From Candidatus Saccharimonadota bacterium (GTDB lineage: Bacteria; Patescibacteriota; Saccharimonadia; Saccharimonadales; UBA4665), in NCBI GenBank assembly GCA_003153395.1, contig PLYP01000006.1:1-64000 (forward strand): a stretch of DNA of 64,000 nucleotides. Reading direction: 5' to 3'. This document shows, one piece after another, positions 19,541 to 31,239 of the stretch (position 1 is its first letter; each line of letters opens with the position of its first letter). The translations under genes were made by a program, and so were the position numbers. A model generated the notes under the pieces. It ran no database searches, had not been told where the DNA came from, and saw only the letters and a program-made list of their open reading frames with translations.

Positions 19541-19615
19541 TGGGGCGTGGCCAAGTGGTAAGGCACCAGTTTTTGGTACTGGCATCCGCAGGTTCGAATC
19601 CTGCCGCCCCAGCCA
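19541..19615 (+). tRNA. tRNA-Gln (UUG), CCA encoded
   Basis: Cloverleaf readable by eye: acceptor TGGGGCG/CGCCCCA, D-arm with AAGTGGTAA, anticodon stem CCAGT/ACTGG with a 7-base loop giving anticodon TTG, T-arm GCAGG/CCTGC with loop TTCGAAT, discriminator G and encoded CCA at 19613-19615. It marks the left edge of an accessory region. Its last 25 bases (GGTTC, 14 bases, CAGCCA) recur in diverged form six times downstream, as expected of an integration target. Confidence 0.96.
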
Positions 19616-19620
19616 AACAC
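19591..19620 (+). repeat. tRNA-Gln 3' end as founding copy of the spaced repeat
   Basis: GGTTC at 19591-19595, 14 bases, then CAGCCA at 19610-19615, continuing AAACACGCCTAT into the flank. The six downstream copies keep the two end blocks, the exact 14-base spacing and the CC at inner positions 5-6, which pairs with GG in the T-stem (the 31209 copy has TC). The copy at 31209 also shares CGCCTAT in the 3' flank, suggesting it is the original right-hand partner. Confidence 0.75.
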
Positions 19621-19678
19621 GCCTATTGACAGTGCTTACGATTGCTAATATTGTAGCTTTGTCGTCAAGCAGGGAGAT

Positions 19679-20758
19679 ATGGTGAAATTACGAGAGCAGA
19701 CAAGATTACTGACTTCTATCGTTGGCAGCTACCCCAAGCCCAAGGACATTTACCCTAAGTCGGGTAGAAAATTATTAGACAGCTTTGGGTCTTCCTTCGA
19801 AGCGTACGAACAAAAAACAGGCAAACAAAAGTTCAGCGCGTTATTAGATCAGGCTGCGCTGACAGCAATTGCTGACCAAACTCAGGCCGGTATTGACATC
19901 ATCACTGATGGAGAAGAACGACGTGGCCACTATGTGCTGTCCATTATTAATAAACTGTCGGGTATAGACACTTTAAACTTGAAAAATATCAGTATTCGCA
20001 ACGGGACTGCTGAACAGATGGCTCCACGAGTAACTGGTAAAATGGCATATAACGGATCGATCGTAACAGAAGAGTACGCTTTTACTAACAGCCACACCAA
20101 TAAACTTATTAAAATCGGCCTACCTGGCCCTGCGACAGTAGTTGATTGTGTCGCAGACGAATACTACAAAGGTGATAAAAAACAACTGGCTTATGACTAC
20201 GCCGACGCTATTCGCTCTGAAGTTGCGGCCTTAATAAAAGCTGGTTGCAAGGTGATTCAGTTTGATGACCCAGTGTTGCTGCGCTATCCCGATGAGGCTC
20301 GCGATTGGGGGCTAAAAGCGCTTGAAAGATGTTTCGAGGGATACCAGAACAAGGCGACTTTTATCGTGCACATCTGTCGAGGTTACCCAGATAAGCCCTT
20401 GGAAAGGAAAGGAATTAACTACAAAGCCAATCAGAACTATTACGTAGATATTCTGGCCTGGTTATCGCAGTCTAAGCTTGATGTCGTTTCGATCGAGGCG
20501 GCTCAAGGTAATCTGGATCTTTCAATCTTGCCAGCCATTGGCAACAAAACTGTCATGCTCGGGGTTTTAGACGTTGGAAATAACAAAGTTGAAACGGTCA
20601 ATGAGTTGACCGCGCGCGGTCGAGAAGCTTTGCGGTACCTACCGAAGGATCAACTAATACTTGCACCCGATTGCGGTATGATCGAGCTTTCCAGAAGCTC
20701 TGCTAAAGGAAAACTCAGTAATTTAGCAACTGCAGCAAATAAGCTGAACAGAGTCTGA
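19679..20758 (+). CDS. Cobalamin-independent methionine synthase-like protein (MetE C-terminal/archaeal type)
   Basis: Transfers a methyl group to homocysteine or a related thiol. The 359 residues cover only the catalytic C-terminal barrel, as in archaeal short MetE, and begin with the typical SIVGSYPKP. The zinc ligands are visible: His and Cys in VHICRGYP, Glu in VSIEAAQG and Cys in LAPDCGMIEL. GDGEERRG-like TDGEERRGHYV is also family-typical. A GGGAGA sequence precedes the ATG. It is the first gene after tRNA-Gln, and its stop is followed 3 bases later by a tRNA-end repeat. Methyl donor is unknown for short forms. Confidence 0.85.
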   Translation: MVKLREQTRLLTSIVGSYPKPKDIYPKSGRKLLDSFGSSFEAYEQKTGKQKFSALLDQAALTAIADQTQAGIDIITDGEERRGHYVLSIINKLSGIDTLNLKNISIRNGTAEQMAPRVTGKMAYNGSIVTEEYAFTNSHTNKLIKIGLPGPATVVDCVADEYYKGDKKQLAYDYADAIRSEVAALIKAGCKVIQFDDPVLLRYPDEARDWGLKALERCFEGYQNKATFIVHICRGYPDKPLERKGINYKANQNYYVDILAWLSQSKLDVVSIEAAQGNLDLSILPAIGNKTVMLGVLDVGNNKVETVNELTARGREALRYLPKDQLILAPDCGMIELSRSSAKGKLSNLATAANKLNRV

Positions 20759-20761
20759 AAT

Positions 20762-20787
20762 GGTTCCTGACCGAGATGCTCAGCCGA
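20762..20787 (+). repeat. tRNA-Gln 3'-end-like repeat, copy 2
   Basis: GGTTC, 14 bases (CTGACCGAGATGCT), CAGCCG, preceded by TGAAAT. It begins 3 bases after the stop codon of the MetE-like gene. Compared with tRNA-Gln the ends and the inner CC are kept and the rest has diverged. Confidence 0.7.
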
Positions 20788-20869
20788 AAACTACTATGTT
20801 ATGAAAGTCTATGAAGCCTAGAAATGCATCCAGTAAAATGACTTCGTACCAATAACTTACAAACCGGCG

Positions 20870-20875
20870 TATAAT
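20870..20875 (+). promoter_or_regulatory. -10 box before the MTB12-like gene
   Basis: TATAAT 38 bases before the ATG at 20914. A second TATAAT (20897-20902) lies 11 bases before the ATG and is followed by TAGGAGAG as ribosome binding site. Either could serve; the first gives a normal leader. Confidence 0.45.
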
Positions 20876-20913
20876 GCCCCTATAGGAAGCTTAATTTATA
20901 ATTTAGGAGAGCT

Positions 20914-21411
20914 ATGAGAAAGTATTGGATTGTCTTAATAGCGCTAGTAGTTATTGTAGGTGGCGGTTGTGCCATCTGGTGGTTTGCCAGTGGCCAAAAT
21001 ACCAATAATTCTACTAGCACTACATCTTCAGCTGCTACTCAAACGTCAGCTAAAAATCAAATCAGAGCCAACTGGGTAAAATTCTTCGCCGGCACGACCT
21101 CTGCCCAGAACAAAATCAACCTACTGCAGAACGGCCAACAGTTCGCTCAAGTCATTCAAGCTCAAGCACAATCGGCAACGGCTAAGGCGACAACCGCGAC
21201 AGTTTCCAACGTGAGCCTTAGCGGCAACACCGCGTCTGTTACATACACCATTGATATAAACAAGCAGCCGGCGCTCAGTAACCAAAAGGGTCAAGCTGTC
21301 GATGTGAATGGTACCTGGAAGGTGGGTGACGCTGCCTTTTGTGGGTTACTCCAGCTATCTGGCAGTGTACCGCCGAATTGCCCGGCTACTACCAGCCCGT
21401 CGTCCCAATAG
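20914..21411 (+). CDS. Secreted/anchored MTB12-like protein
   Basis: An N-terminal membrane segment (about 4-26, ending in GGGCAIWWFASG, a weak lipobox at best) and a Ser/Thr/Asn-rich spacer (27-50) precede a domain that resembles the C-terminal domain of mycobacterial low-molecular-weight antigen MTB12: WVKFFAGTTSAQNKINLLQNG (about 55-75), TVSNVSLSGNTASVTYTID, GTWKVGDAAFCGLLQLSG and a final PPNC. That family is largely actinobacterial, which fits acquisition from an actinobacterial host or donor, though this is inference. It is followed after 30 bases by an MFS exporter, so the two may be co-transcribed. Confidence 0.7.
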   Translation: MRKYWIVLIALVVIVGGGCAIWWFASGQNTNNSTSTTSSAATQTSAKNQIRANWVKFFAGTTSAQNKINLLQNGQQFAQVIQAQAQSATAKATTATVSNVSLSGNTASVTYTIDINKQPALSNQKGQAVDVNGTWKVGDAAFCGLLQLSGSVPPNCPATTSPSSQ

Positions 21412-21441
21412 CATCAAATCTAACCTTGAAGGAGTGTTGTT

Positions 21442-22995
21442 ATGGCCGTGGCTGCAGCGCCTATGAAACGCCGAGGGGTTTTAGCTGTTGTCTGTACTAT
21501 CCTGTTTTTGACTTTTTTAGATAACACCATTGTGAGCGTTGTTCTGTCGGGAATCCAGACAGATCTCAATGCCAGCGTTCAAGCACTTCAATGGATAGTT
21601 GCCGGCTATATGCTAGCTTTTTCCGCCTTAATGCTGACCGGTGGTACCCTGGGTGATATCTTCGGCCGTAAAAAAATCATGCTCGGCGGTCTGGCTGTGT
21701 TTTCGGTAGGCTCGGCGGTGGCCATGCTAGCGCCATCAACCGGTGTACTGACGGCCGGCCGAGTGATCATGGGTATTGGTGCAGCCGCCTCGGAACCAGG
21801 TACATTGTCTGTGATCCGCCATATTTTCCCAGATCGAAAATCGCGTTCCAGGGCCCTAGGCGTGTGGGCGGCAGTATCGGGCTCGGCACTGGCTTTCGGG
21901 CCGATTATTGGCGGTCTCATCAGCGGCGTTGCCAGCTGGCGGGAAGTATTTACCTTTAACTTGATTGCCGGGATCTTAATATTGATTATCGGGCTAAAGG
22001 TTTTGCCCGAAAGTGCCGACCCGCAGGGCCGGAAAGTGGATATTGGCGGACTTATATTAGGAGCGGCAGCGCTTGGACTAGCAGTATTTTCTGTTATAGC
22101 TGGCGAGTCGGCAGGTTATAGCACGTGGTGGATTGATGCATTATTTGCTGCTTCAGCTCTTTTCTTGGCCATTTTCATTTACTGGGAGCGGCGATATGCT
22201 GACGCCATGCTTAAGCTGAGCTATTTCCGCATACCAGCTTTTAGCGGCGCAAACATAATTGCCTTTGCCACTAACTTCGGAGTATTTGCGATTTTTTTCT
22301 TCACGGCACTCTACCTGGCTATCGTTGCCGGCTTTTCGGGATACCGTATCGCACTGTCGTTCGTGGCTTTGGCTGCCAGTATGGTAGCCTCGTCATCGTT
22401 CACCGGCCGCTGGCTGGCTAGGCACGGCCCAATCTATCCTATGACGGTAGGTTGCTTGCTGGGTGGTATAGGTATCTTCGTAGTTGATGCGATTATGAAA
22501 CCGGGGGTCAACACCGGCACATTGATTTGGTCGTTAGCTATTGTAGGCTTTGGGTTTGGTATGACGCTGGTAACCTCAACCAGCATAGTGTTAACAATCA
22601 TACCCGCTGAACGGTCCGGCATGGCATCCTCGACGTTTAATGTGTCGAGGGAACTGGGCGGTGTATTCGGAGTGGCGGTGCTTGGATCTATCGTAAATGG
22701 ACAGCTGACATCGCAGCTGATCCAAAAATTGCAGGCTTTGGGATTACCTCATGACTTTCAGTCGCTGGTTACTTATGCGATTACTCACGGCGGTAACTTA
22801 CCAGCCAATAGCCATGTTTCGGCCGGAGCAGTGTTGAGCCATCCCCAGTTAGTGCAACAAGTAACTAACGCATCGTATCAAGCTTTTGGAAATGGCTTGG
22901 ATATTGCCCTGCGGTTAGCTGGGATAGTTATGTTAATATCGGCCGTTATCTCGGTTCTGACTATGCGGCTACCGGCGAACAAGTTGCGGTTCTAG
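21442..22995 (+). CDS. MFS transporter, DHA2 (EmrB/QacA) drug exporter type
   Basis: 517 residues with about 14 membrane helices, the DHA2 topology. Motifs: FLDNTIVSVVLSGIQTDLNAS in helix 1 (D-x-T-I-V-N/S-V-A-L type), the motif A loop GDIFGRKKIML (about 70-80), and motif C in helix 5 (SGSALAFGPIIGGLISGV). Likely a proton-driven exporter of drugs or metabolites. Start: ATG 21442 behind AAGGAGTG. Base composition looks clearly more GC-rich than the flanking core genes. Its TAG stop lies inside the next tRNA-end repeat. Confidence 0.92.
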   Translation: MAVAAAPMKRRGVLAVVCTILFLTFLDNTIVSVVLSGIQTDLNASVQALQWIVAGYMLAFSALMLTGGTLGDIFGRKKIMLGGLAVFSVGSAVAMLAPSTGVLTAGRVIMGIGAAASEPGTLSVIRHIFPDRKSRSRALGVWAAVSGSALAFGPIIGGLISGVASWREVFTFNLIAGILILIIGLKVLPESADPQGRKVDIGGLILGAAALGLAVFSVIAGESAGYSTWWIDALFAASALFLAIFIYWERRYADAMLKLSYFRIPAFSGANIIAFATNFGVFAIFFFTALYLAIVAGFSGYRIALSFVALAASMVASSSFTGRWLARHGPIYPMTVGCLLGGIGIFVVDAIMKPGVNTGTLIWSLAIVGFGFGMTLVTSTSIVLTIIPAERSGMASSTFNVSRELGGVFGVAVLGSIVNGQLTSQLIQKLQALGLPHDFQSLVTYAITHGGNLPANSHVSAGAVLSHPQLVQQVTNASYQAFGNGLDIALRLAGIVMLISAVISVLTMRLPANKLRF

Positions 22996-23014
22996 ACCGG
23001 CATGCTCAGCCAAA
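22988..23014 (+). repeat. tRNA-Gln 3'-end-like repeat, copy 3
   Basis: GGTTC, TAGACCGGCATGCT, CAGCCA then AA. The MFS stop codon TAG is the first three bases of the inner segment, so gene and repeat are fused. It matches copy 4 over 25 consecutive bases. Confidence 0.75.
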
Positions 23015-23017
23015 TGG

Positions 23018-23023
23018 TAAACT
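23018..23023 (+). promoter_or_regulatory. -10 box of the cupin gene
   Basis: TAAACT ending 7 bases before the ATG at 23031; no Shine-Dalgarno. It lies only 3 bases after the tRNA-end repeat, so the cupin unit would carry its own leaderless promoter. Confidence 0.4.
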
Positions 23024-23030
23024 AAAGTAG

Positions 23031-23456
23031 ATGAAACCATACACTATCATAGGTGCTAACGAGACAGAGGATGCCTACGCTGGAAGCGATGACGTTCCGG
23101 GGGAGTTTCGTAGACTGACCAGCGCTCTCAACTGCGAGCAATTGGCCATAACATTAATCCGCATTCCGCCTCATTCTGATTTTGAGCAGGGCACTGGCCA
23201 TTTTCACGAAGAGGTTGAGGAGGTTTACTTAATAACTCGTGGTACATTAACGATGCGCTTCGGCATCGACATTAAAAAGGTCTCGGCTGGCTCAGCAGTA
23301 CGCGTAGCGCCCAAGACCCCGCGTTCGCATCGTAATGAAGGCGACGAACCGGTAGAAATGTGGGCTATATCGCTTAAGATTGACCACCATGATGCCACTA
23401 AAATAGACGATTTCTGGGAAGCATCCGAACAAGCCAAACAGCACCTTGCGGATTAA
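23031..23456 (+). CDS. Cupin domain protein, 141 aa
   Basis: A single cupin barrel. Motif 1 G-x5-H-x-H-x3,4-E-x6-G is seen as GTGHFHEEVEEVYLITRG (about 50-67), and motif 2 as PRSHRNEGDEPVEMWAIS (about 96-113) with a likely metal His in RSHRNEG. Enzymatic and small-molecule-binding cupins cannot be told apart here. The gene is alone between two tRNA-end repeats (copies 3 and 4), making the smallest unit of the accessory region at about 470 bases. Its stop codon directly abuts copy 4. Confidence 0.85.
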   Translation: MKPYTIIGANETEDAYAGSDDVPGEFRRLTSALNCEQLAITLIRIPPHSDFEQGTGHFHEEVEEVYLITRGTLTMRFGIDIKKVSAGSAVRVAPKTPRSHRNEGDEPVEMWAISLKIDHHDATKIDDFWEASEQAKQHLAD

Positions 23457-23485
23457 GATTCTAGACCGGCATGCTCAGCCAAAGC
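23457..23485 (+). repeat. tRNA-Gln 3'-end-like repeat, copy 4
   Basis: GATTC, TAGACCGGCATGCT, CAGCCA then AAGC, starting on the base after the cupin stop codon. Identical to copy 3 over 25 bases except for the second base of the first block. Confidence 0.75.
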
Positions 23486-23560
23486 ATAAGTATTATCTTT
23501 GCTTAACCGTCTTGAGCAATTATTGCAGGTACGGAGTACAATTGAAGGTATACGTATTGG

Positions 23561-23577
23561 TATAATTTAGAAGGAGG
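23561..23577 (+). promoter_or_regulatory. -10 box and strong ribosome binding site of the YggT-like gene
   Basis: TATAAT (23561-23566) is followed by AAGGAGG (23571-23577). Two ATGs follow in tandem. The second, at 23584, has the better spacing (6 bases). Confidence 0.5.
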
Positions 23578-23583
23578 CATATG

Positions 23584-23973
23584 ATGGCCGACGACATTCA
23601 AAAAGTTCGTGAAACGACTACTCAATCAGGTGATACAGTTCAAAAAACTACCGAAACGAAAAGCTCAAGTGATAAAGCCGAGCATCGGAGTAATGTAGCT
23701 TCAAGAGTTGTTTGGTTTGTTGCGGGAGTATTACTTGTGCTACTTGGGTTCCGATTTGTACTTACGTTGCTTGGTGCTAATACTACTAATAGCTTTGCCA
23801 GTTTTATCTATAAAACATCACACCCATTTGTTTCTCCCTTCTTCAGCTTGTTTAACTATAACAATCAAGTTTATGGGGTCTCTCGTTTCGAAACCTATAC
23901 CTTAGTGGCTATGGTAGTCTATGCAATAATTGCATGGGGAATTGCCAAATTGATTACATTGAATCGAGATTAG
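23584..23973 (+). CDS. YggT-like membrane protein
   Basis: About 129 residues. A charged, Thr/Ser/Lys-rich cytoplasmic N-terminus (1-40) precedes two membrane helices (about 41-68 and 103-123) joined by a loop, SFASFIYKTSHPFVSPFFSLF, that resembles the YggT family's F...P.L.P.R segment. Function in these organisms is unknown; YggT proteins are tied to envelope or osmotic functions elsewhere. The first ATG at 23581 is possible but only 3 bases from the Shine-Dalgarno. Confidence 0.65.
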   Translation: MADDIQKVRETTTQSGDTVQKTTETKSSSDKAEHRSNVASRVVWFVAGVLLVLLGFRFVLTLLGANTTNSFASFIYKTSHPFVSPFFSLFNYNNQVYGVSRFETYTLVAMVVYAIIAWGIAKLITLNRD

Positions 23974-24099
23974 ATATACTTGCTTCAAACCTTACAAGTT
24001 CAGCCTCGCCCCAAATGAAAGATTACAAATACCGATCGAGACACATAAACAGGTAATTAATATGTCGCGGGAGGATAAGTTAATAAAGTGTCATGGGAG

Positions 24100-24105
24100 T
24101 ACAAT
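24100..24105 (+). promoter_or_regulatory. -10 box of the LapA-like gene
   Basis: TACAAT ending 7 bases before the ATG at 24113; no Shine-Dalgarno sequence, so probably leaderless. Confidence 0.45.
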
Positions 24106-24112
24106 ATGAACT

Positions 24113-24439
24113 ATGAATAATAGTATTCCTAACAATCGACCGGAAGAGAACTCTGATAAACAAGCTGTTTCCGATCTACCACTACGTGAAGCGAAGAAGA
24201 CACGAATAAGCACAGCATGGTTTATGGCGGTAAGTTTTATTATCTTACTCCTATTGTTACTAATTTTTATCTTACAAAACCTACAGGACATACCTATTCA
24301 GTTCATTAGCTTTCACTGGAAAATTCCGCAAGGTATTGCAATGCTACTTGCTGCAGTTGTAGGCGGATTTTTAGTGGCGTTGTTTGGCACGGCTCGAGTT
24401 GTCCAGCTAGGACGCAGATTAAGAAAAGACAAAAGCTAA
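24113..24439 (+). CDS. LapA-domain (DUF1049) membrane protein
   Basis: 108 residues. After a polar N-terminus (1-33) come two membrane helices (about 36-58 and 75-97) separated by QNLQDIPIQFISFHWKIPQGI, the N...V.v.F..w....P.. pattern of lipopolysaccharide assembly protein A. It ends with a basic tail RLRKDKS. As CPR bacteria generally lack lipopolysaccharide, the E. coli role is unlikely to apply directly. Confidence 0.75.
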   Translation: MNNSIPNNRPEENSDKQAVSDLPLREAKKTRISTAWFMAVSFIILLLLLLIFILQNLQDIPIQFISFHWKIPQGIAMLLAAVVGGFLVALFGTARVVQLGRRLRKDKS

Positions 24440-24468
24440 GCAACGATATCCAATTTACTTCTACCCTC

Positions 24469-24490
24469 GTTAACCAAGGCCAGCCAAAGC
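24469..24490 (+). repeat. Possible decayed tRNA-end repeat (half site)
   Basis: CAGCCAAAGC matches the right end and flank of copy 4 exactly over 10 bases, and the inner CC and GGC are partly kept, but there is no GGTTC block at the expected place. It lies 30 bases after the lapA-like stop, where a boundary before the toxin-antitoxin pair would be expected. Confidence 0.3.
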
Positions 24491-24500
24491 GTAATAGGCA

Positions 24501-24528
24501 TTGACAAGTGGCACACTTTTGATACACT
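24501..24528 (+). promoter_or_regulatory. Promoter of the toxin-antitoxin pair
   Basis: Consensus TTGACA (24501-24506), a 16-base spacer and TACACT (24523-24528), ending 6 bases before the antitoxin ATG. A strong leaderless promoter. TACACTGGATAC near the start may also serve as operator, but I see no clear palindrome. Confidence 0.65.
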
Positions 24529-24534
24529 GGATAC

Positions 24535-24759
24535 ATGAGTACATCAAAATCCCGAATCAATGTTAGTGTTCCTGACGATGTTAAAGCTGCCCTAACTAAG
24601 TTAGCTAAAAGGGATCAGCTACCCACCGCCACAAAGGCAGTACGTCTTATAGAAATGGGCCTCGAACTGGAGGAAGATGAAATCTGGGACAAAATAGCAG
24701 CTAATAGAGACCAGAAGGAAACCAAGTTTCATACGCACGCTGAAGTATTCGAGACCTAG
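24535..24759 (+). CDS. Antitoxin, ribbon-helix-helix type
   Basis: 74 residues. The N-terminal strand-helix-helix SRINVSVPDDVKAALTKLAKRDQ with TATKAVRLIEMGLELEEDE is the RHH DNA-binding dimerisation pattern; the acidic/polar C-terminus (about 52-74) would wrap the toxin. Its stop is immediately followed by the toxin ATG, the usual antitoxin-first order. Autoregulation is expected for the family but no operator is proven. Confidence 0.8.
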   Translation: MSTSKSRINVSVPDDVKAALTKLAKRDQLPTATKAVRLIEMGLELEEDEIWDKIAANRDQKETKFHTHAEVFET

Positions 24760-25032
24760 ATGTACGAGATCCTCTATATTGATGAGGTGGTTAACGAAGA
24801 TTTACCATACATTTTAGAACCTTGGAAAAGTGAGATTAGAAAAGCGATTGAGTTAAAACTAATGACTCGTCCCGAAGCTTACAGCAAACCCCTCCGTCGG
24901 TCATTAAAAGGTTATCGAAAACTAAAGGTTGGCGATTATAGAATAGTCCTGAGGATCGAAGACAAAGTAGTCAAAGTTTTTGTCATTCAGCATAGGTCCG
25001 TCGTATACGAGACTGCACCCAAACGGCTATAA
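24760..25032 (+). CDS. RelE/ParE family toxin
   Basis: 90 residues with the RelE fold pattern: YEILYIDEVVNEDLPYILEPWKSEIRKAIE helix region, LKGYRKLKVGDYRIVLRIED (strands with the conserved basic L.g.yR.r.gdyRv motif) and VVKVFVIQHRSVVYE at the end. RelE members cleave mRNA on the ribosome and ParE members poison gyrase; GDYRIV and QHR suggest RelE, but the subtype is uncertain. Such a pair could stabilise the surrounding accessory region. Confidence 0.82.
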   Translation: MYEILYIDEVVNEDLPYILEPWKSEIRKAIELKLMTRPEAYSKPLRRSLKGYRKLKVGDYRIVLRIEDKVVKVFVIQHRSVVYETAPKRL

Positions 25033-25167
25033 CATCGAAGCTGTTTGGGATGATTTGAAGAAAAGCACAGACCTCGTTGAAGGACGGGAAGAACAAAGTT
25101 AAGAAAACAAGTGCACTGGGTGTCTCATTTGCCTCGTTTAACAGAGACTCCCTCAAGAAGAGGATGA

Positions 25168-25173
25168 TATACT
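25168..25173 (+). promoter_or_regulatory. -10 box of the P-loop kinase gene
   Basis: TATACT ending exactly 6 bases before the ATG at 25180; no Shine-Dalgarno. Leaderless transcript expected. Confidence 0.6.
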
Positions 25174-25179
25174 AAAGCA

Positions 25180-25716
25180 ATGACAGATAGTGGCGTACTT
25201 GTTCTTGTGATCACAGGGTCAGTCGGTGTCGGCAAGTCGAGCACGGCAGATGTAATATCGGAGATTCTAAGAAAACGTGATGTCCCGCATGCCGTAATCG
25301 ACATGGACTATTTACGCTATGCGTTTCCTCGTCCAGCAGACGATCCATTCCATCGGACGCTGGGCGCTAAAAACTTAGCATCTGTCTGGAAAAATTACCA
25401 GAGCATTGGTGTACGCAATATTATCATTCCTAACATCGTTGAAGATAAGGCCGATGTCGATGCTATTGCCAAGGCCATACCCGGCGCTAAAGTTTTTGTC
25501 GTTCGCTTAAAGGCATCCCTGGACACGATACATAATCGACTCCACGAACGTCATCACAATCGCGACAGCGACAATCTTAATTGGCACCTTGATCGAGCAG
25601 ACGAGCTCACTAAACAACTGGAAAGTTCTAAAGTGGAAGATTTTGTGGTTGATACTGACGATAAGCCTTTAAGAGAAATCGCGAAAGAAATACTTGTAAA
25701 ATGGTTGAGTAATTGA
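25180..25716 (+). CDS. P-loop kinase, adenylylsulfate kinase/Zeta-like
   Basis: 178 residues. N-terminal Walker A GSVGVGKSS (about 12-20), then an acidic D-x-D in AVIDMDYLRY (about 40-49), and a Thr/Arg-rich HNRLHERHHNRDSD lid near 116-130. The layout matches small AAA_33/APS-kinase-like enzymes that phosphorylate a nucleotide or small metabolite. There is no dedicated APS motif, so the substrate is not assigned. It is not obviously linked to the RelE pair 147 bases upstream. The stop lies 6 bases before the next tRNA-end repeat. Confidence 0.7.
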   Translation: MTDSGVLVLVITGSVGVGKSSTADVISEILRKRDVPHAVIDMDYLRYAFPRPADDPFHRTLGAKNLASVWKNYQSIGVRNIIIPNIVEDKADVDAIAKAIPGAKVFVVRLKASLDTIHNRLHERHHNRDSDNLNWHLDRADELTKQLESSKVEDFVVDTDDKPLREIAKEILVKWLSN

Positions 25717-25722
25717 CGAAAA

Positions 25723-25749
25723 GGTTCTAGACCGGCACGCTCAACCAAG
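25723..25749 (+). repeat. tRNA-Gln 3'-end-like repeat, copy 5
   Basis: GGTTC, TAGACCGGCACGCT, CAACCA then AG, preceded by GAAAA. It differs from copy 3 at one inner base and in the right block. Its antisense reading encodes VERAGLEP, the kind of peptide produced when an antisense tRNA T-arm is translated. Confidence 0.7.
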
Positions 25750-25851
25750 TATTGCACCAAAGGAGACCGTAATCCTATTAAGCAGCACCAAAAAAACACT
25801 TAAGTCTGTAGAATCCCTCGATGTTCGAACCGCTGACTCAGAATTTATAAT

Positions 25852-26508
25852 TTATTGTCGCGGGGATTTTTCGCCATAAATAAGATCGCCCGCGTCGCCA
25901 AGACCGGGAAAAATTAAAAACTCGTCGTTCAACTTGTCGTCAATGGCCGCCGCAAAAAGCACTAGATCCGGGATATGCCGGCCTATGTACTCAATAGCCG
26001 GTTTGCTTGCCAGCACGCTAGCTGCGTAGACTACAGATGGTTTGCCATATTTCATCAGCTCGTAGTAAGTGTCAACAAGCGTTGTTCCGGTGGCGATCAT
26101 CGTATCGGCAATGATTAGCGGACGTCCATCTAGCGGTGGGCAGGCAACGTATTCAATCACGCTTTGCATAGCACCATCGCTCCCCAGTCGCCGATAGGCA
26201 GTAATGAAGGCGCTGTCCGCTTGGTCAAACACGTCTAGCATTCCCTGGTGAAATGGAAGTCCCGCACGCAAAACAGTAGCTAATACCGGCTGCGTAACCA
26301 ATTCATGCGTCTTGGCCGCGCCAAGTACCGTCTGCGTTGTAGCTTTGTGGTAGTCCAACTCCTTGCTTATCTCATAACCAATTAACATCCCGGTGCGTTT
26401 AACGTTAGTAACAAACCGTAGGCGATCTTGCTGAATAGACTTATCCCTCAGTTCACGTAGGTACTGGTTGATGATCGAGGAGTGAGTGGATAAATCGCGG
26501 ATTTGCAT
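25852..26508 (-). CDS. upp: Uracil phosphoribosyltransferase
   Basis: Salvages uracil with PRPP to UMP. 218 residues with family hallmarks: PVLATVLRAGLPFHQGMLD (about 75-93), the PRPP-binding LIIADTMIATGTTLVD (about 132-147) and the uracil site FPGLGDAGDLIYGE near the C-terminus. On the minus strand TATGCT (26515-26520) ends 6 bases before the ATG. It diverges from the baeRF/hydrolase/CCA genes and is the first gene in the longest module of the accessory region. GC-richer than core genes. Confidence 0.92.
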   Translation of the reverse strand: MQIRDLSTHSSIINQYLRELRDKSIQQDRLRFVTNVKRTGMLIGYEISKELDYHKATTQTVLGAAKTHELVTQPVLATVLRAGLPFHQGMLDVFDQADSAFITAYRRLGSDGAMQSVIEYVACPPLDGRPLIIADTMIATGTTLVDTYYELMKYGKPSVVYAASVLASKPAIEYIGRHIPDLVLFAAAIDDKLNDEFLIFPGLGDAGDLIYGEKSPRQ

Positions 26509-26633
26509 GCCTATAGCATACTACAGGTCGCAGCAGCGTGAACGTTATGAATTTGATCTAGATCACTACACCTGGGTGGCAATTATCACTGACTACTATT
26601 CTTAACGGCCCCATACTTCAGCTGTAGATGTAT

Positions 26634-26641
26634 AAAGGAGG
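26634..26641 (+). promoter_or_regulatory. Strong ribosome binding site for a 46-codon ORF
   Basis: AAAGGAGG, 7 bases before ATG 26649. This decides that the short ORF, and not only the baeRF gene 110 bases further on, is translated. Confidence 0.6.
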
Positions 26642-26648
26642 TGTGCTT

Positions 26649-26789
26649 ATGAAAGCATCGGCAGCGGAATGTCATGCAATCAATGACCGCCCCTGCGTAA
26701 AAGCAAATCAAGACCGTACTTCGGATAAGACTTTACATAACCAGAGTAGGATAAACAATGATAAATTTTCCCAATCAACAAGAGCTTAA
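26649..26789 (+). CDS. Short ORF, 46 aa, coupled to the baeRF gene
   Basis: Begins MKASAAECHAIND and ends SQSTRA; polar, two Cys, no membrane segment, no recognised family. Support comes from the strong Shine-Dalgarno and from a 32-base overlap with the next gene, whose own ATG (26758) has no good ribosome binding site. It could be a leader peptide whose translation opens the baeRF start, or a small protein. It may also be fortuitous. Confidence 0.45.
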   Translation: MKASAAECHAINDRPCVKANQDRTSDKTLHNQSRINNDKFSQSTRA

Positions 26790-27603
26790 GACACTACGGG
26801 CTTTTAATGAACTCAACTGCGTAACAATCTATGCTCCATTTATTGACCCGAATGCAGCAACCAATCCAAACAGGATTGAACTTAAAAATCTACTACGTGA
26901 AACCGAAACAGCCTTACGGTCTGCCCACGTGGAACCAGGAGAAATAAAACAGACGCTCCGACCTGCCCGGGCACTGCTAGAAAACCACGAATTCTGGCCA
27001 ATAAAGCACGAGAGCCTGGCCCTGTTTATGCACCCAAAGCTATTTAGCTATTACCACATTCCCGACCACGACATCCCATATGTGCTGACTGTTGGAAAAG
27101 GCTTCAATTTGAAGCCCCTAATTAAAGCCGCGCAAGAGAACAAATCATACTTTGTCTTAGCGCTTAACCATAACAATGTTCAATTATACAAAGGCGACCA
27201 TTACAACCTCCAACCGGTGCGCCTCAAAAACTTTCCTACCAATATGAAACGGTCGCTCAACATTGATGAATACCCAAAAGCAAGCGAGACGCACAACATT
27301 GCACCCGCCAGTACTGGCAAGGGTTCAGAAGCATATCACGGCCAATATAACGTCAGCCAAACTGACAAAGTCATGCTCCTCCAATTTTTTAAGCACATAG
27401 ATAAGCGCCTACATGCTTTTTTGCGGCGTAACCAGTCGCCGCTGATACTGGCCGGTGTCAACTACTTATTACCAATCTATCGCCAGGTTAATACTTCTGA
27501 GTATCTACTGGAAGACAACCTAAAAGGCAGCTTTGAGCGAACTGACCTGGACACTATAAGAAAACGCTCATTGGCACTTATCAATAGAGGGGAGCCTGTA
27601 TGA
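26758..27603 (+). CDS. Archaeo-eukaryotic release factor-like protein (baeRF family)
   Basis: 281 residues matching, in layout, bacterial relatives of eRF1/aRF1: an N-terminal domain with CVTIYAPFIDPNAATNPNRI (about 22-41), LFMHPKLFSYYHIPD, a middle domain YFVLALNHNNVQLYKGD (about 136-152, a classic baeRF strand) and a C-terminal domain ending ILAGVNYLLPIYRQVN with YLLEDNLKGS. Some family members act in ribosome rescue or hibernation; the role here is unknown. The stop overlaps the next start by 4 bases (ATGA). Confidence 0.7.
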   Translation: MINFPNQQELKTLRAFNELNCVTIYAPFIDPNAATNPNRIELKNLLRETETALRSAHVEPGEIKQTLRPARALLENHEFWPIKHESLALFMHPKLFSYYHIPDHDIPYVLTVGKGFNLKPLIKAAQENKSYFVLALNHNNVQLYKGDHYNLQPVRLKNFPTNMKRSLNIDEYPKASETHNIAPASTGKGSEAYHGQYNVSQTDKVMLLQFFKHIDKRLHAFLRRNQSPLILAGVNYLLPIYRQVNTSEYLLEDNLKGSFERTDLDTIRKRSLALINRGEPV

Positions 27604-28265
27604 AAACCGAGTTACATAAACCTGCAACAGTTTCAGCGCGAATCGTGCACATACCTATCGATGGCTTTGAACTAGAGGCTGAGCTGCAAGTTCCGCCGGA
27701 AGCCAAAGGATTGGTTATTTTTGCCCACGGTAGCGGTAGTAGCCGGCATAGTCCACGAAACAAATTTGTTGCGCAAAAGTTGCTTCAAGATTCGCTAGCT
27801 ACGTTACTGGTGGATTTGCTATCGGAGGAAGAGGATAGTTATTATCAAAGTCGGTTTGACATAGCATTACTTACTGAGCGTCTTGTTATAATCACTGACT
27901 GGGCCACACATTACGAAGCTACTGAACATCTCAACATCGGTTATTTCGGTGCTAGTACAGGTGCGGCCGCTGCTATGTTGGCCGCAGCCGGGGCTGAAGA
28001 TGTTGTTAAAGCAATTGTCTCCCGCGGTGGGCGAGTAGACCTGGCAGACGAGGCTGCAGCATCGGTGAGAGTACCCACGATGCTCATCGTTGGGCTACAA
28101 GATCACGGTGTCCGGGAAGCAAATGAAGAAGTCTTTATGAAGCTCAAGGGCAAAAAAGACCTTGCTGAAATTCCTAACGCCACCCATCTGTTTGAAGAGC
28201 CAGGCGCTTTGGAGCGTGTCGCTCAACTAGCATCAGCCTGGTTTGGAGAGTATTTAAACCCGTGA
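27600..28265 (+). CDS. Dienelactone hydrolase-type alpha/beta hydrolase
   Basis: 221 residues. Oxyanion HGSGSSRHSPRN (about 43-54), nucleophile elbow GYFGASTGAAAAM (about 120-132, G-x-S-x-G), acid in LIVGLQDHGVRE and the catalytic His in ATHLFEEPG. This subgroup often neighbours phosphoribosyltransferases, as here with upp in the same module. Translationally coupled to the baeRF gene by ATGA. The substrate is unknown. Confidence 0.82.
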   Translation: MKTELHKPATVSARIVHIPIDGFELEAELQVPPEAKGLVIFAHGSGSSRHSPRNKFVAQKLLQDSLATLLVDLLSEEEDSYYQSRFDIALLTERLVIITDWATHYEATEHLNIGYFGASTGAAAAMLAAAGAEDVVKAIVSRGGRVDLADEAAASVRVPTMLIVGLQDHGVREANEEVFMKLKGKKDLAEIPNATHLFEEPGALERVAQLASAWFGEYLNP

Positions 28266-28339
28266 ACCATCGCAGCCTGACTTGTCCATATGTCCAACAC
28301 TAGATCGGTGGCAATGGCGTGATAGCCTTCATAAGACCC

Positions 28340-30193
28340 ATGAAAACCAAGCAACAAATAGAGGCGAAGCCATTAGGCATTGATTTAGCTTCTAGGGCTG
28401 AATCCCAACTATTCTTGTGGTTTCTCGCCTGTTTGCTCTTTGGCAAACCTATCCAACGGGAAATTGCTGGTCAAGCCTACAAAACACTAACCGATGCCGG
28501 CATAAATTCGTTAAACCAACTGCTTAAAACCGACTGGAACACCCTGGTCGCCCTACTTGACCAAGCCCGCTACGTGCGTTATGACTTTTCGACTGCCACC
28601 AAGCTACTCGAGGTTGCCAAGGCCCTAAAAGAACAATACGGTTCAGTTACCCAGTTACTTAAACAATCCGCTAACATTGGAGATTTAGAAAAGCATCTAA
28701 CAGCTTTTAAAGGTATTGGGCCAGTAACCGCCGCTATTTTTATCAGAGGCTTGGTACCGGTATGGTTTGAAGAAGCTACACCTCATGATTATGAGGCTGC
28801 CAGGTATGCTGCAGGTATCCTCAGCCGACAGGGCTTCGAGGCCTATATCATCGGCGGGGCAGTTAGGGATCTCTGGCTTGGCCGACACCCTAAGGATTTT
28901 GACCTGGTCAGCAACGCTACTCCCAAACAACTCATGGGGATTGCTGAATTTAATCAGTCAACGTATAAAGACGCGTCCCAAGCCTTTGGCGTCACGCGGG
29001 TTAAGTTCTTGCATCAAGGTATTAGCCATGAATTGGAGGTCGCAACGTTTAGGAAGGACCTTGAAGCTCATCAGGGGCGGAAAGCCACAAAAGTTATCTT
29101 TGCCAAGCTCGAAGATGATGTAACCCGCCGAGATTTTACAATTAATGCCCTGGCACTTAACCCAATAACCAATCAGATAATTGACTACGTTGGCGGTATT
29201 GATGATTTAGACAATAAGATAGTGCGGTTTATCGGTAAACCCGAACAGCGGATTCAAGAAGACCCTCTGCGCATCATGCGCGCGATTAGGTTTAAGAACC
29301 AGCTAGGCTTTTCTTACCACCCGGCAGCTGTTTTAGCTATTAAAAAGGCTGTTAAACAGGGGTGCATAGAGACTATAGCGGTTGACCGGCTTCGTGATGA
29401 ATTAACAAATCTCCTCATCGACCCAAGCCGGAGTAGTTCAGTTCATGATTTAAGCCGGTTTGGCATATTAGAGCAGGTTTTGCCCGAGGTTACGGCTGCT
29501 AGGGGTATAGTTCAACCGCAGCAGTTTCACGCTGAGGGTGACGTTTGGCAGCATGAGCTACTAATTCTTGACTACCTGCCGCCGAACCCCAGTAAGCGCC
29601 TGGCTTGGGCAGCTTTGTTGCACGACATTGGTAAAGGCCCGACGAGCACTAAGCCCCTTAGCTCAAAGGATCGCATTCGTTTCAACCGGCATTATGCCGT
29701 GGGCTCTGAAATGGCTAAAACTATCCTCAGAAGACTCAAATTTTCAAACCATGACATAAAGGATATTACCTGGATGATTTATAACCATATTGCCATCGAT
29801 GATCTGCCCTCAATGCGTCCGAGCCGACAACAGAGTATGCTGGGTTATCCGGCTTTCGAAGATTTGCTTGAATTACACCGTGCCGATGCCGCAGCTAGTT
29901 GGAGGCCCGGCAAACCTCATGGCACCAAGCCTAAGTTTCGGGAAATTGAGCACCTGTGGCACCTATACCAATCCAAAAGCCCTGAACTCAAGCAACCATC
30001 GCTGAAGCGAGATCTTGGCATTGATGGTAAGTGGCTACTCAAAGAGTTCGGAAAAGAGTTTAATATTTCCTCGGGACCGTCAATCGGGGAAGTCCTTTCC
30101 ACTTTAGAGGACTGGTATAAAGATGAGGGCATCAAAGATCCAGAAGCCTATAAACGCAAAGCAAGGCACTTACTTAAGCGCTACACTCTATAG
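28340..30193 (+). CDS. HhH glycosylase-like domain fused to CCA-adding enzyme with HD domain
   Basis: 617 residues from ATG 28340; a GTG at 28319 would add seven. Residues 1-150 resemble the helix-hairpin-helix part of endonuclease III-type proteins (LFLWFLACLLFGKPI; hairpin FKGIGPVTAAIFIRGL). From about 150 follows a class II nucleotidyltransferase: AYIIGGAVRDLWLGRHPKDFDL with the G-G-x-V-R-D and D-x-D motifs, RRDFTINALAL, and EDPLRIMRAIRF. An HD domain (WAALLHDIGKGPT) and a C-terminal helical tail complete it. Known role of the middle part is tRNA 3' CCA addition or repair; what the N-terminal domain adds is not known to me. Confidence 0.85.
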   Translation: MKTKQQIEAKPLGIDLASRAESQLFLWFLACLLFGKPIQREIAGQAYKTLTDAGINSLNQLLKTDWNTLVALLDQARYVRYDFSTATKLLEVAKALKEQYGSVTQLLKQSANIGDLEKHLTAFKGIGPVTAAIFIRGLVPVWFEEATPHDYEAARYAAGILSRQGFEAYIIGGAVRDLWLGRHPKDFDLVSNATPKQLMGIAEFNQSTYKDASQAFGVTRVKFLHQGISHELEVATFRKDLEAHQGRKATKVIFAKLEDDVTRRDFTINALALNPITNQIIDYVGGIDDLDNKIVRFIGKPEQRIQEDPLRIMRAIRFKNQLGFSYHPAAVLAIKKAVKQGCIETIAVDRLRDELTNLLIDPSRSSSVHDLSRFGILEQVLPEVTAARGIVQPQQFHAEGDVWQHELLILDYLPPNPSKRLAWAALLHDIGKGPTSTKPLSSKDRIRFNRHYAVGSEMAKTILRRLKFSNHDIKDITWMIYNHIAIDDLPSMRPSRQQSMLGYPAFEDLLELHRADAAASWRPGKPHGTKPKFREIEHLWHLYQSKSPELKQPSLKRDLGIDGKWLLKEFGKEFNISSGPSIGEVLSTLEDWYKDEGIKDPEAYKRKARHLLKRYTL

Positions 30194-30258
30194 AATAGAC
30201 GGTATTTTTAGGTTCAAAATTATCATTTACCATTTTTAATAGTTGGGCTATAACTAGA

Positions 30259-30289
30259 AGGCTCCAAACCAACACGCCCAGCCAAACAC
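30259..30289 (+). repeat. tRNA-Gln 3'-end-like repeat, copy 6
   Basis: GGCTC (30260-30264), CAAACCAACACGCC, CAGCCA then AACAC. The right flank AACAC is the same as that following tRNA-Gln itself. It lies 66 bases after the stop of the CCA-enzyme gene. Confidence 0.65.
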
Positions 30290-30348
30290 TATTTACAACA
30301 TGTAGGTCCTTAAAGTCTAGGTTTAACTATACTAACGGAAACCAAAAA

Positions 30349-30373
30349 GGTTCATGTCTGGTATACCCACCCA
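30349..30373 (+). repeat. Weak further candidate tRNA-end repeat
   Basis: GGTTC, 14 bases, CACCCA, with an A-rich left flank like copies 5 and 7. The spacing is exact, but the inner segment does not have CC at positions 5-6, so this may be chance. Confidence 0.25.
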
Positions 30374-30409
30374 GACTGGGCAACAGATATAACTGCATCC
30401 CTAGAAATT

Positions 30410-30946
30410 CTATTTTTTATGCTCACTCAGCGTGTCGGCCACCATATCCGTATAATTTTTCATAAAATCACGCTGCTCTTTGCCGATATGTCCTTCAAAC
30501 TGGAAGTAGCTAAAAATAAGCGCACCTCCATTGCTAATTTTAAGGGGGTAAACGGCACTATAAGAAACACCGGAACTAGCTTGATTAATGTGCGCCTCTT
30601 CTGTTTTCAGCACAGGGCTATAGATGAAACGCCAATCAGTCGTATCTTTTGGTTTGCCAGTTTTAATAGCCCGGGCAATAATATTATCTTTATCGCCGAG
30701 CGGTATCCTAATGTCCTCAAAAGGTATATTAGATACTCTGATGATGTCCTTCGCCATATCTGAGTCGGACATGGCGATACGATCTATAGTGCCTGACTCC
30801 ACGTCAACGAGTAATAACACAATTATACCCAGGTACATAAACGCAACTTCTGATTCTTGATCAAATGGCGCGTTGACAATAACCTGAAAAAGCTCAGGTC
30901 CAATTTTTTCAGTATTTAATGCTAGTACGAGTTTCGCGTAATCCAT
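30410..30946 (-). CDS. GAF-like domain protein, 178 aa
   Basis: Soluble protein with alternating strands and helices: YLGIIVLLLVDVESGTIDRIAMSD, then FEDIRIPLGDKDNIIARAIKTGKP (typical GAF i-ai-tG-p), SAVYPLKISNGGALIFSYF and a closing helix RDFMKNYTDMVADTL. No catalytic or output domain is attached, so a small-molecule or redox sensor is possible but not shown. It starts one base after the stop of a small membrane protein gene on the same strand, so they form an operon. Confidence 0.6.
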   Translation of the reverse strand: MDYAKLVLALNTEKIGPELFQVIVNAPFDQESEVAFMYLGIIVLLLVDVESGTIDRIAMSDSDMAKDIIRVSNIPFEDIRIPLGDKDNIIARAIKTGKPKDTTDWRFIYSPVLKTEEAHINQASSGVSYSAVYPLKISNGGALIFSYFQFEGHIGKEQRDFMKNYTDMVADTLSEHKK

Positions 30947-30947
30947 T

Positions 30948-31169
30948 TTATTTCTTTGATCTTAAAGACACTGGTCCATAAATATTCTTGCTAACTAAAA
31001 CAAATTTTATAGTTGCCGATAGCCATCCTATAAGGAACCCAAAGAAAATTAAAGCTATATCTTTTAGATCTGATGTTCCCTTAAGTCTCCATCTAATTAG
31101 CAGAACAATTGCCCAGGCAATAAAAATTCCAATACTATATATCGTCCACGATTTGTACGATTTACTCAT
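30948..31169 (-). CDS. Small two-helix membrane protein, 73 aa
   Basis: Two predicted membrane helices (about 9-27 and 38-62) joined by a short basic loop RWRLKGTSDLKD, with a basic tail SLRSKK. No family recognised. First gene of the minus-strand pair with the GAF-like protein, suggesting a membrane-linked sensor unit (inference). Confidence 0.55.
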   Translation of the reverse strand: MSKSYKSWTIYSIGIFIAWAIVLLIRWRLKGTSDLKDIALIFFGFLIGWLSATIKFVLVSKNIYGPVSLRSKK

Positions 31170-31208
31170 ACCTTAATTGTACTCTTTAGGCAGTAAAAAA
31201 TGTTGAAA

Positions 31209-31239
31209 AGGTTCCTGATCGTCATATTCAGCCAACGCC
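31209..31239 (+). repeat. tRNA-Gln 3'-end-like repeat, copy 7 (right edge)
   Basis: GGTTC (31210-31214), CTGATCGTCATATT, CAGCCA then ACGCC, preceded by GAAAA. The right flank CGCCTAT matches that of tRNA-Gln, as expected if this was the original junction. Core-like genes resume after it. Confidence 0.65.

Follow-up and report, generated by a model that had tools for sequence, protein, structure and literature searches.

Behind the tRNA-Gln(UUG) gene of a Candidatus Saccharimonadota bacterium lies an array of small gene units, each ending in a conserved 25-bp site. The array is contained in the 64,000-nucleotide stretch analysed here (assembly GCA_003153395.1, contig PLYP01000006.1, positions 1 to 64,000; hereafter the window). 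Unrelated accessory genes stacked in this manner behind tRNA genes of this Saccharibacterium and its relatives look like integron-style gene swapping with a tRNA as the point of entry. We are highly confident that the structure is an additive cassette array behind tRNA-Gln. The complete explanation that we favour, in which the array grows by site-specific insertion at the tRNA-Gln 3′ end through a serine integrase acting in trans, has a probability of about 0.57.

The pattern GGTTC-N14-CAGCCA, with at most one mismatch, has 9 matches in the window, whereas 100 shuffled sequences average 0.52 and never exceed 3. The first-pass annotation of this DNA had named such a control beforehand as a possible refutation of its cassette array; the controls do not match the hit count, and chance is excluded as the origin of repeats that are real and non-random. 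The copies start at 20762, 22988, 23457, 25723, 30260 and 31210, with an additional weak one at 30349. All are in plus orientation, as annotated, and the first four positions agree with the annotation, whereas the last two had been placed one base off (30259 and 31209). The inner CC is indeed kept in all copies but that at 31210, which has TC. The two tRNA blocks, described as preserved, match exactly at 22988 and 31210 only, the remaining copies having one mismatch, and the third and fourth copies are not identical over 25 bases; the closest pair is 22988/23457, with 24 of 25 bases in common.

The sites had also been regarded as tRNA-derived, which our alignments contradict. The family, GGTTCYWGACCGRYATGCTCARCCA, has in common with the tRNA only GGTTC, the inner CC and the CARCCA tail. 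Since the 14 inner bases are non-random and follow a conserved sequence, YWGACCGRYATGCT, distinct from that of the tRNA, the sites represent a family of their own and not decayed tRNA; genuine displaced tRNA-Gln 3′ ends occur occasionally in the arrays of relatives (an exact copy lies at L091 9002). Alignment of 61 sites with 40-base flanks yields a single conserved block, GGTTCYWGACCGRYATGCTCARCCA, preceded by a weaker CGAAAA, and a longer upstream consensus, GATTAGgCTGAACAAAGacCGAAAA, is present in 43 of 94 sites of the order, with no covarying pairs among these 43 extended sites. The tail mirrors the type of tRNA, reading CAGCCA at tRNA-Gln, CAACCA at tRNA-Met and GAGCCA at tRNA-Asn with few exceptions, one of which is the window site at 25723. 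Accordingly, Gln-array sites have G at site position 21 in 71 of 76 cases, and Met-array sites have A there in 7 of 8 cases (Fisher 1e-6, uncorrected for relatedness).

The sites are confined to tRNA-anchored arrays. A profile search of the genome returned 10 matches at E<=1, nine of which fall in two arrays, one behind each tRNA-Gln gene: six in the window and three, at C1:35301, 36377 and 36797, behind a second tRNA-Gln, with anticodon CUG, at C1:31454-31527. The tenth is an orphan. Equal frequency of the motif throughout the genome, which had been posed in advance as evidence against an array, is not observed. The orphan (C1:111918; L218 1500-2260) has an altered tail and adjoins a Gly-Pro-Ser-Thr repeat protein. 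Among relatives, nearly all of which are metagenome assemblies, the family is found in Saccharimonadales, WWE3 and Woesebacteria (125 sites versus 0 in controls, for which the sequence or pattern was reversed but not complemented). At no more than two mismatches, 37 of 393 genomes of the order carry a site, compared with 0 for the reversed control, and family f35, to which most sampled genomes of the order belong, has none. A scan of genome contigs and its follow-up located further arrays in WWE3, one Woesebacterium and one marine patescibacterium, the densest of which hold 5 to 7 sites within 3-8 kb behind tRNA-Gln. Where the contig is long enough, the site mostly lies downstream of tRNA-Gln (with either anticodon), tRNA-Met or tRNA-Asn and on the same strand as that gene. 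Sites in bins labelled 'Nitrospirae' and 'Armatimonadetes' (L131, L137) have the same context and were taken as misbinned contigs of the candidate phyla radiation.

The tRNA gene is the hinge between a conserved and a variable side. At nine tRNA-Gln(UUG) loci, 48 of 53 open reading frames (ORFs) upstream have a same-side homologue elsewhere, compared with 12 of 69 downstream; at the tRNA-Gln(CUG) loci the values are 50/75 and 21/117. Upstream of tRNA-Gln(UUG), relatives keep the order CysS, AI-2E family protein, two glycosyltransferases and alpha/beta hydrolase. Downstream, the order differs between relatives, contrary to the shared gene order that had been proposed as a refutation, and homologues of the MetE, MTB12, MFS, cupin, ParE and kinase genes are absent from the array loci of relatives that were fetched.

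Individual units recur in arrays of other genera at 92-99.9% identity, with edges at the CARCCA hexamer. Two bins of different genera (G225 and G177) have 2811 bp in common at 99.86% identity, up to and including the last site base, after which the DNA is unrelated; these bins come from like-named samples and misbinning is possible, yet the DNA past the shared unit differs. Likewise, G025 (counted once with G020, whose contig is identical) and G221 share a unit at 98.6% from CCAGCCA to the last site base, followed by unrelated DNA, and G087 and G098 share 6.1 kb at 92% up to the last site base, followed by different DNA. Homology between G052 and G093 begins at site position 19, and an SDR unit behind tRNA-Gln(CUG) of the genome under study is 92.65% identical to a unit of G171, both beginning at the same base. 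From these edges, the crossover is placed within CARCCA. Together, the synteny and the shared units support the annotated cassette array anchored on a tRNA, with units that change between relatives and have their edges at the motif.

These boundaries also bear on whether the motif might instead be an RNA element, such as an mRNA 3′-end processing or terminator signal. The sites do sit close 3′ of stop codons and resemble a T-arm. The motif is, however, confined to tRNA-anchored regions and devoid of covariation, and unit homology stops exactly at it, which contradicts a role in RNA; we consider this explanation very improbable.

The window array comprises six units and their sites:

19541-19615, plus strand: tRNA-Gln(UUG), identified with ARAGORN; hinge of synteny
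19591-19615, plus strand: 3′ end of this tRNA, GGTTCGAATCCTGCCGCCCCAGCCA; anchor and putative insertion target
19616-20786, plus strand: unit 1, a MetE-like C-terminal catalytic domain protein (19679-20758; Pfam PF01717, 6.5e-36), ending in a site
20762-20786, plus strand: site 1, 4 bp past the MetE-like stop codon (40.4 bits; E 1.5e-6 genome-wide)
20787-23012, plus strand: unit 2, a Mycobact_memb-like protein (20914-21411) and an MFS transporter (21442-22995), both from Pfam
22988-23012, plus strand: site 2, overlapping the end of the MFS gene (42.0 bits; E 7.9e-7)
23013-23481, plus strand: unit 3, 469 bp with a lone cupin gene (23031-23456; Pfam PF07883)
23457-23481, plus strand: site 3, immediately past the cupin stop codon (39.6 bits; E 9.6e-7)
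23482-25747, plus strand: unit 4, with YGGT-like (23581-23973) and LapA-domain (24113-24439) proteins, an RHH antitoxin/ParE toxin pair (24535-25032) and an AAA/phosphotransferase-like kinase (25180-25716), all from Pfam
25723-25747, plus strand: site 4, with tail CAACCA, 7 bp past the kinase stop codon (45.6 bits; E 2.9e-7)
25748-30284, plus strand: unit 5, a UPRTase (minus strand), a baeRF protein, a dienelactone-hydrolase-like protein and a CCA-adding enzyme, from Pfam
30260-30284, plus strand: site 5, degenerate (25.1 bits; E 0.01)
30349-30373, plus strand: weak copy, 89 bp past site 5 (14.1 bits)
30285-31234, plus strand: unit 6, a 178-residue protein and a small membrane-protein-like ORF, both on the minus strand, without a Pfam hit
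31210-31234, plus strand: site 6, the last recognised copy in the window (29.6 bits; E 1.3e-4)

The MetE-like gene of unit 1 has no homologue at the corresponding place in relatives, and the 178-residue protein of unit 6, earlier labelled GAF-like, has no Pfam hit. Across arrays, units measure 0.07-12 kb, mostly below 5 kb, and 62 cargo proteins are accessory, including NUDIX, PemK, Ham1, Fic, PIN, glycosyltransferase and sortase families (named from the 25 commonest of 84) as well as toxin-antitoxin systems. Unit 5 (4.5 kb) is the least certain as one mobile unit and may reflect a rearrangement instead of a cassette, because one of its genes, encoding the CCA-adding enzyme, is a likely housekeeping gene and its terminal site is degenerate. 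The CCA-adding enzyme (28319-30193) has about 170 additional residues before its PolyA_pol domain, a region without a Pfam hit.

Some relatives harbour gene-free mini-units of 92-93 bp between two sites (L049 9765-9856, L072, L070, L075, L099). They are imperfectly palindromic (AGCATGTAAGTCC ... GGTTCC..GACATGCT), a character limited to the 92-bp mini-units, and some carry a terminator-like hairpin. Site 5 and the weak copy at 30349 resemble them as a pair, and window positions 30285-30373 are perhaps another mini-unit.

We propose that the array was built through repeated site-specific insertion at the tRNA-Gln 3′ end. Each unit would be a small non-autonomous element consisting of a start, one or more genes and GGTTCYWGACCGRYATGCTCARCCA, with no recombinase aboard. 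A circular form of the unit, the presumed intermediate, would recombine its site with the tRNA 3′ end inside the shared hexamer CARCCA, leaving the tRNA intact and the newest unit directly behind it. Older units would thus be displaced outward, and their sites would form the array. The enzyme would most likely come from autonomous elements whose large serine integrases target tRNA 3′ ends and act in trans.

The units of the window array include no integrase, as the first-pass annotation stated: no gene in it matches PF00589 or PF00239. The annotation favoured a tyrosine integrase as the mobilising enzyme, a suggestion that our data do not support, since the only tyrosine recombinase of the genome is Xer-like and scores above the cut-off of the XerA model, whereas large serine recombinases lie at tRNA ends and in array units. 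Most site-positive genomes of the order likewise have one tyrosine recombinase. We inspected 26 large serine recombinase genes. Of these, 22 terminate within a tRNA 3′ end encoded on the opposite strand or no more than about 110 bp from one (loci L219 7471-9006, on C2 of the genome under study just past the window, L094, L198, L223, L226-L240 and L242). The tRNAs concerned are of the Gly, Asn, Glu, Gln, Met, Arg, Ser, Pro, Ile, Asp and Trp types. The C-terminal residues of many of these enzymes are antisense tRNA (...SWLGMRDSNPR; ...SWLRGLDSNQRPSG at tRNA-Asn in the genome under study), so that integration may alter their C-termini.

Several of these genes are physically linked to arrays. In G191 and G395, the unit that directly follows tRNA-Gln opens with a serine integrase gene and closes with a site; in G053, such a gene lies at tRNA-Gln with a site 9 kb downstream; and in G397, the integrase gene extends into an array site and terminates within it. 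Altogether, three serine integrases lie in site-bearing units. Integrase-less units of G025 and G221 resemble the G191 integrase element at their start, directly after CAGCCA, with 26/30 and 25/30 bases in common, respectively, and they end in a site, a structure that would be expected of non-autonomous derivatives moved in trans. We interpret these positional associations as indicating that tRNA-targeting large serine integrases acting in trans are most likely the enzymes sought, and are the best candidates.

Several observations weigh against this explanation. The genome under study has no serine integrase at tRNA-Gln, since the two that were found lie at tRNA-Asn and are truncated by a contig end, and PF00239 has no match in 6 of 23 genomes searched, all six site-positive and some incomplete. 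The serine integrases at tRNA-Gln are mostly about 22-40% identical to one another, so that it is not evident how a single conserved site would serve them all. Within the closest clade, two members lack a site within range. A shared hexamer of 6 bp is also compatible with a tyrosine recombinase, only 65% of cargo ORFs are oriented toward the site, and unit 5 contains a housekeeping gene.

The compatibility with a tyrosine recombinase raises the question of whether the same array is recombined by the host's single Xer-like enzyme. Xer-dependent elements and pdif modules would be the precedent, and CARCCA would form the 6-bp spacer that separates two binding arms. The Xer-like enzyme is the sole tyrosine recombinase of the genome and is present in nearly every positive genome; moreover, the shared segment is 6 bp long and matches the respective tRNA, and at a few unit starts AGCAT, the inverse of the ATGCT ahead, follows right after CCA (12 of 142 versus 2.6 expected). 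A scan with a loose dif pattern gave matches at chance level and speaks neither for nor against this enzyme. Against it, the site presumably lacks likeness to known dif arms. The right-hand arm at unit starts is weak, heterogeneous and limited to few families, and f35 has no sites at the two-mismatch threshold although Xer is present in both of its genomes checked. Published islands that use Xer target dif rather than tRNA genes (PMC4383910). We therefore regard Xer as an improbable source of the activity.

Slightly less improbable, although still doubtful, is another integrase, either a tyrosine integrase borne by an element or an enzyme transiently present on helper phages or plasmids. The displaced tRNA-Gln 3′ ends in some relatives' arrays, such as L091 9002, are a classical mark of tyrosine integrases, and a second tyrosine recombinase family exists in G234, G198, G043 and G017. 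These second recombinases, however, adjoin neither tRNA-Gln nor sites, no site was detected in 2.9 million viral contigs with the patterns used, and a plasmid collection gave no meaningful match, with a single 20-base chance match.

The description of the array as functionally like an integron holds for the architecture, which comprises a single site closing each unit at its 3′ end, a fixed orientation and entry point, a presumably trans-acting enzyme, and toxin-antitoxin and small accessory cargo. It does not extend to cargo orientation, nor to membership of the integron family as a CALIN-type array of attC sites with the integrase elsewhere, which is largely refuted and very unlikely: (i) the Xer-like protein scores 140.8 bits against the integron integrase model, with a cut-off of 265, and there is no IntI; (ii) the extended site has neither covarying pairs nor an attC-like structure; and (iii) the target is a tRNA in place of attI.

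Site-specific insertion at tRNA-Gln with a serine integrase in trans, the explanation that we prefer, assigns the array to a known kind, the 'additive' tRNA islands, in which gene cassettes insert at a conserved tRNA (Alteromonas fGI1, PMC4119200). Such flexible islands resemble the present array in their tRNA target, in cassettes accreting behind it, in strain-variable content and in short repeats at the units; the conserved upstream and variable downstream sides and the edge repeats in tRNA orientation are all found here. They differ in that their repeats are the tRNA end itself, as in the tRNA-Lys island of Methylophilaceae, where they correspond to the final 20 bases of the tRNA (PMC10872708); such copies of the tRNA end characterise that example and are not required for the class. 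What is new is that the site is conserved and not tRNA, that it is used at three tRNA types and spread over distant, deeply separated Patescibacteria groups, and that the units are small and integrase-less; the link to serine integrases is probably new as well. Literature searches of partial coverage yielded no account of such arrays in Patescibacteria.

Comparable stacking is known from Islander tandem islands, which likewise combine several insertions at one tRNA gene with attR-like marks that all point the same way. For each island, Islander demands an integrase and a piece of the same tRNA, and it reports only four tandems of at least three in 2168 genomes (PMC4383910), whereas the window array has no integrase, the relatives G191, G395 and G053 being exceptions. 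Tycheposons likewise are cargo-carrying elements at tRNA genes, but they carry a tyrosine recombinase and span 4-200 kb (PMC10872708), in contrast to the smaller units here, which have none. Xer-dependent modules (pdif modules, IMEX) share integrase-less modules mobilised in trans. They differ in that the site here is presumably unlike dif and a tRNA serves as target.

Serine integrases that end in tRNA genes contradict the published statement that such enzymes are not known to target tRNA genes (PMC4383910) and could be new tools for site-specific integration. More broadly, and only tentatively, Patescibacteria may possess a gene-capture system that is integron-like yet unrelated to integrons, in which a tRNA 3′ end would serve as entry point, a 25-bp site would define the cassette, and serine integrases whose coding sequence passes at its 3′ end through the tRNA or the site would move integrase-less cassettes in trans across distant lineages. 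It is largely an open question how genome-reduced symbionts of the candidate phyla radiation acquire accessory genes, one that becomes testable with a defined site, a defined entry point and near-identical cassettes across genera.

The genome under study encodes no Y1 transposases. Three viral relatives of the array serine integrase were found, with no site near any of them. Second tyrosine recombinases from WWE3 and from four Saccharibacteria, in the latter beside an unknown gene for 313 residues, were considered as array enzymes and dropped because neither group lies at an array. In WWE3 and Woesebacteria (L188-L192), the second enzyme is conserved beside tRNA-Met genes (a tRNA-Met pair in WWE3), with tRNA-Ile in addition in three loci, and is probably inherited vertically. 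In the Saccharibacteria loci L205 (3858-5728) and L206 (3241-5084), a tyrosine recombinase forms an operon with an unannotated protein of 313-317 residues near a large serine recombinase, and this operon is possibly a mobile element of Saccharibacteria.

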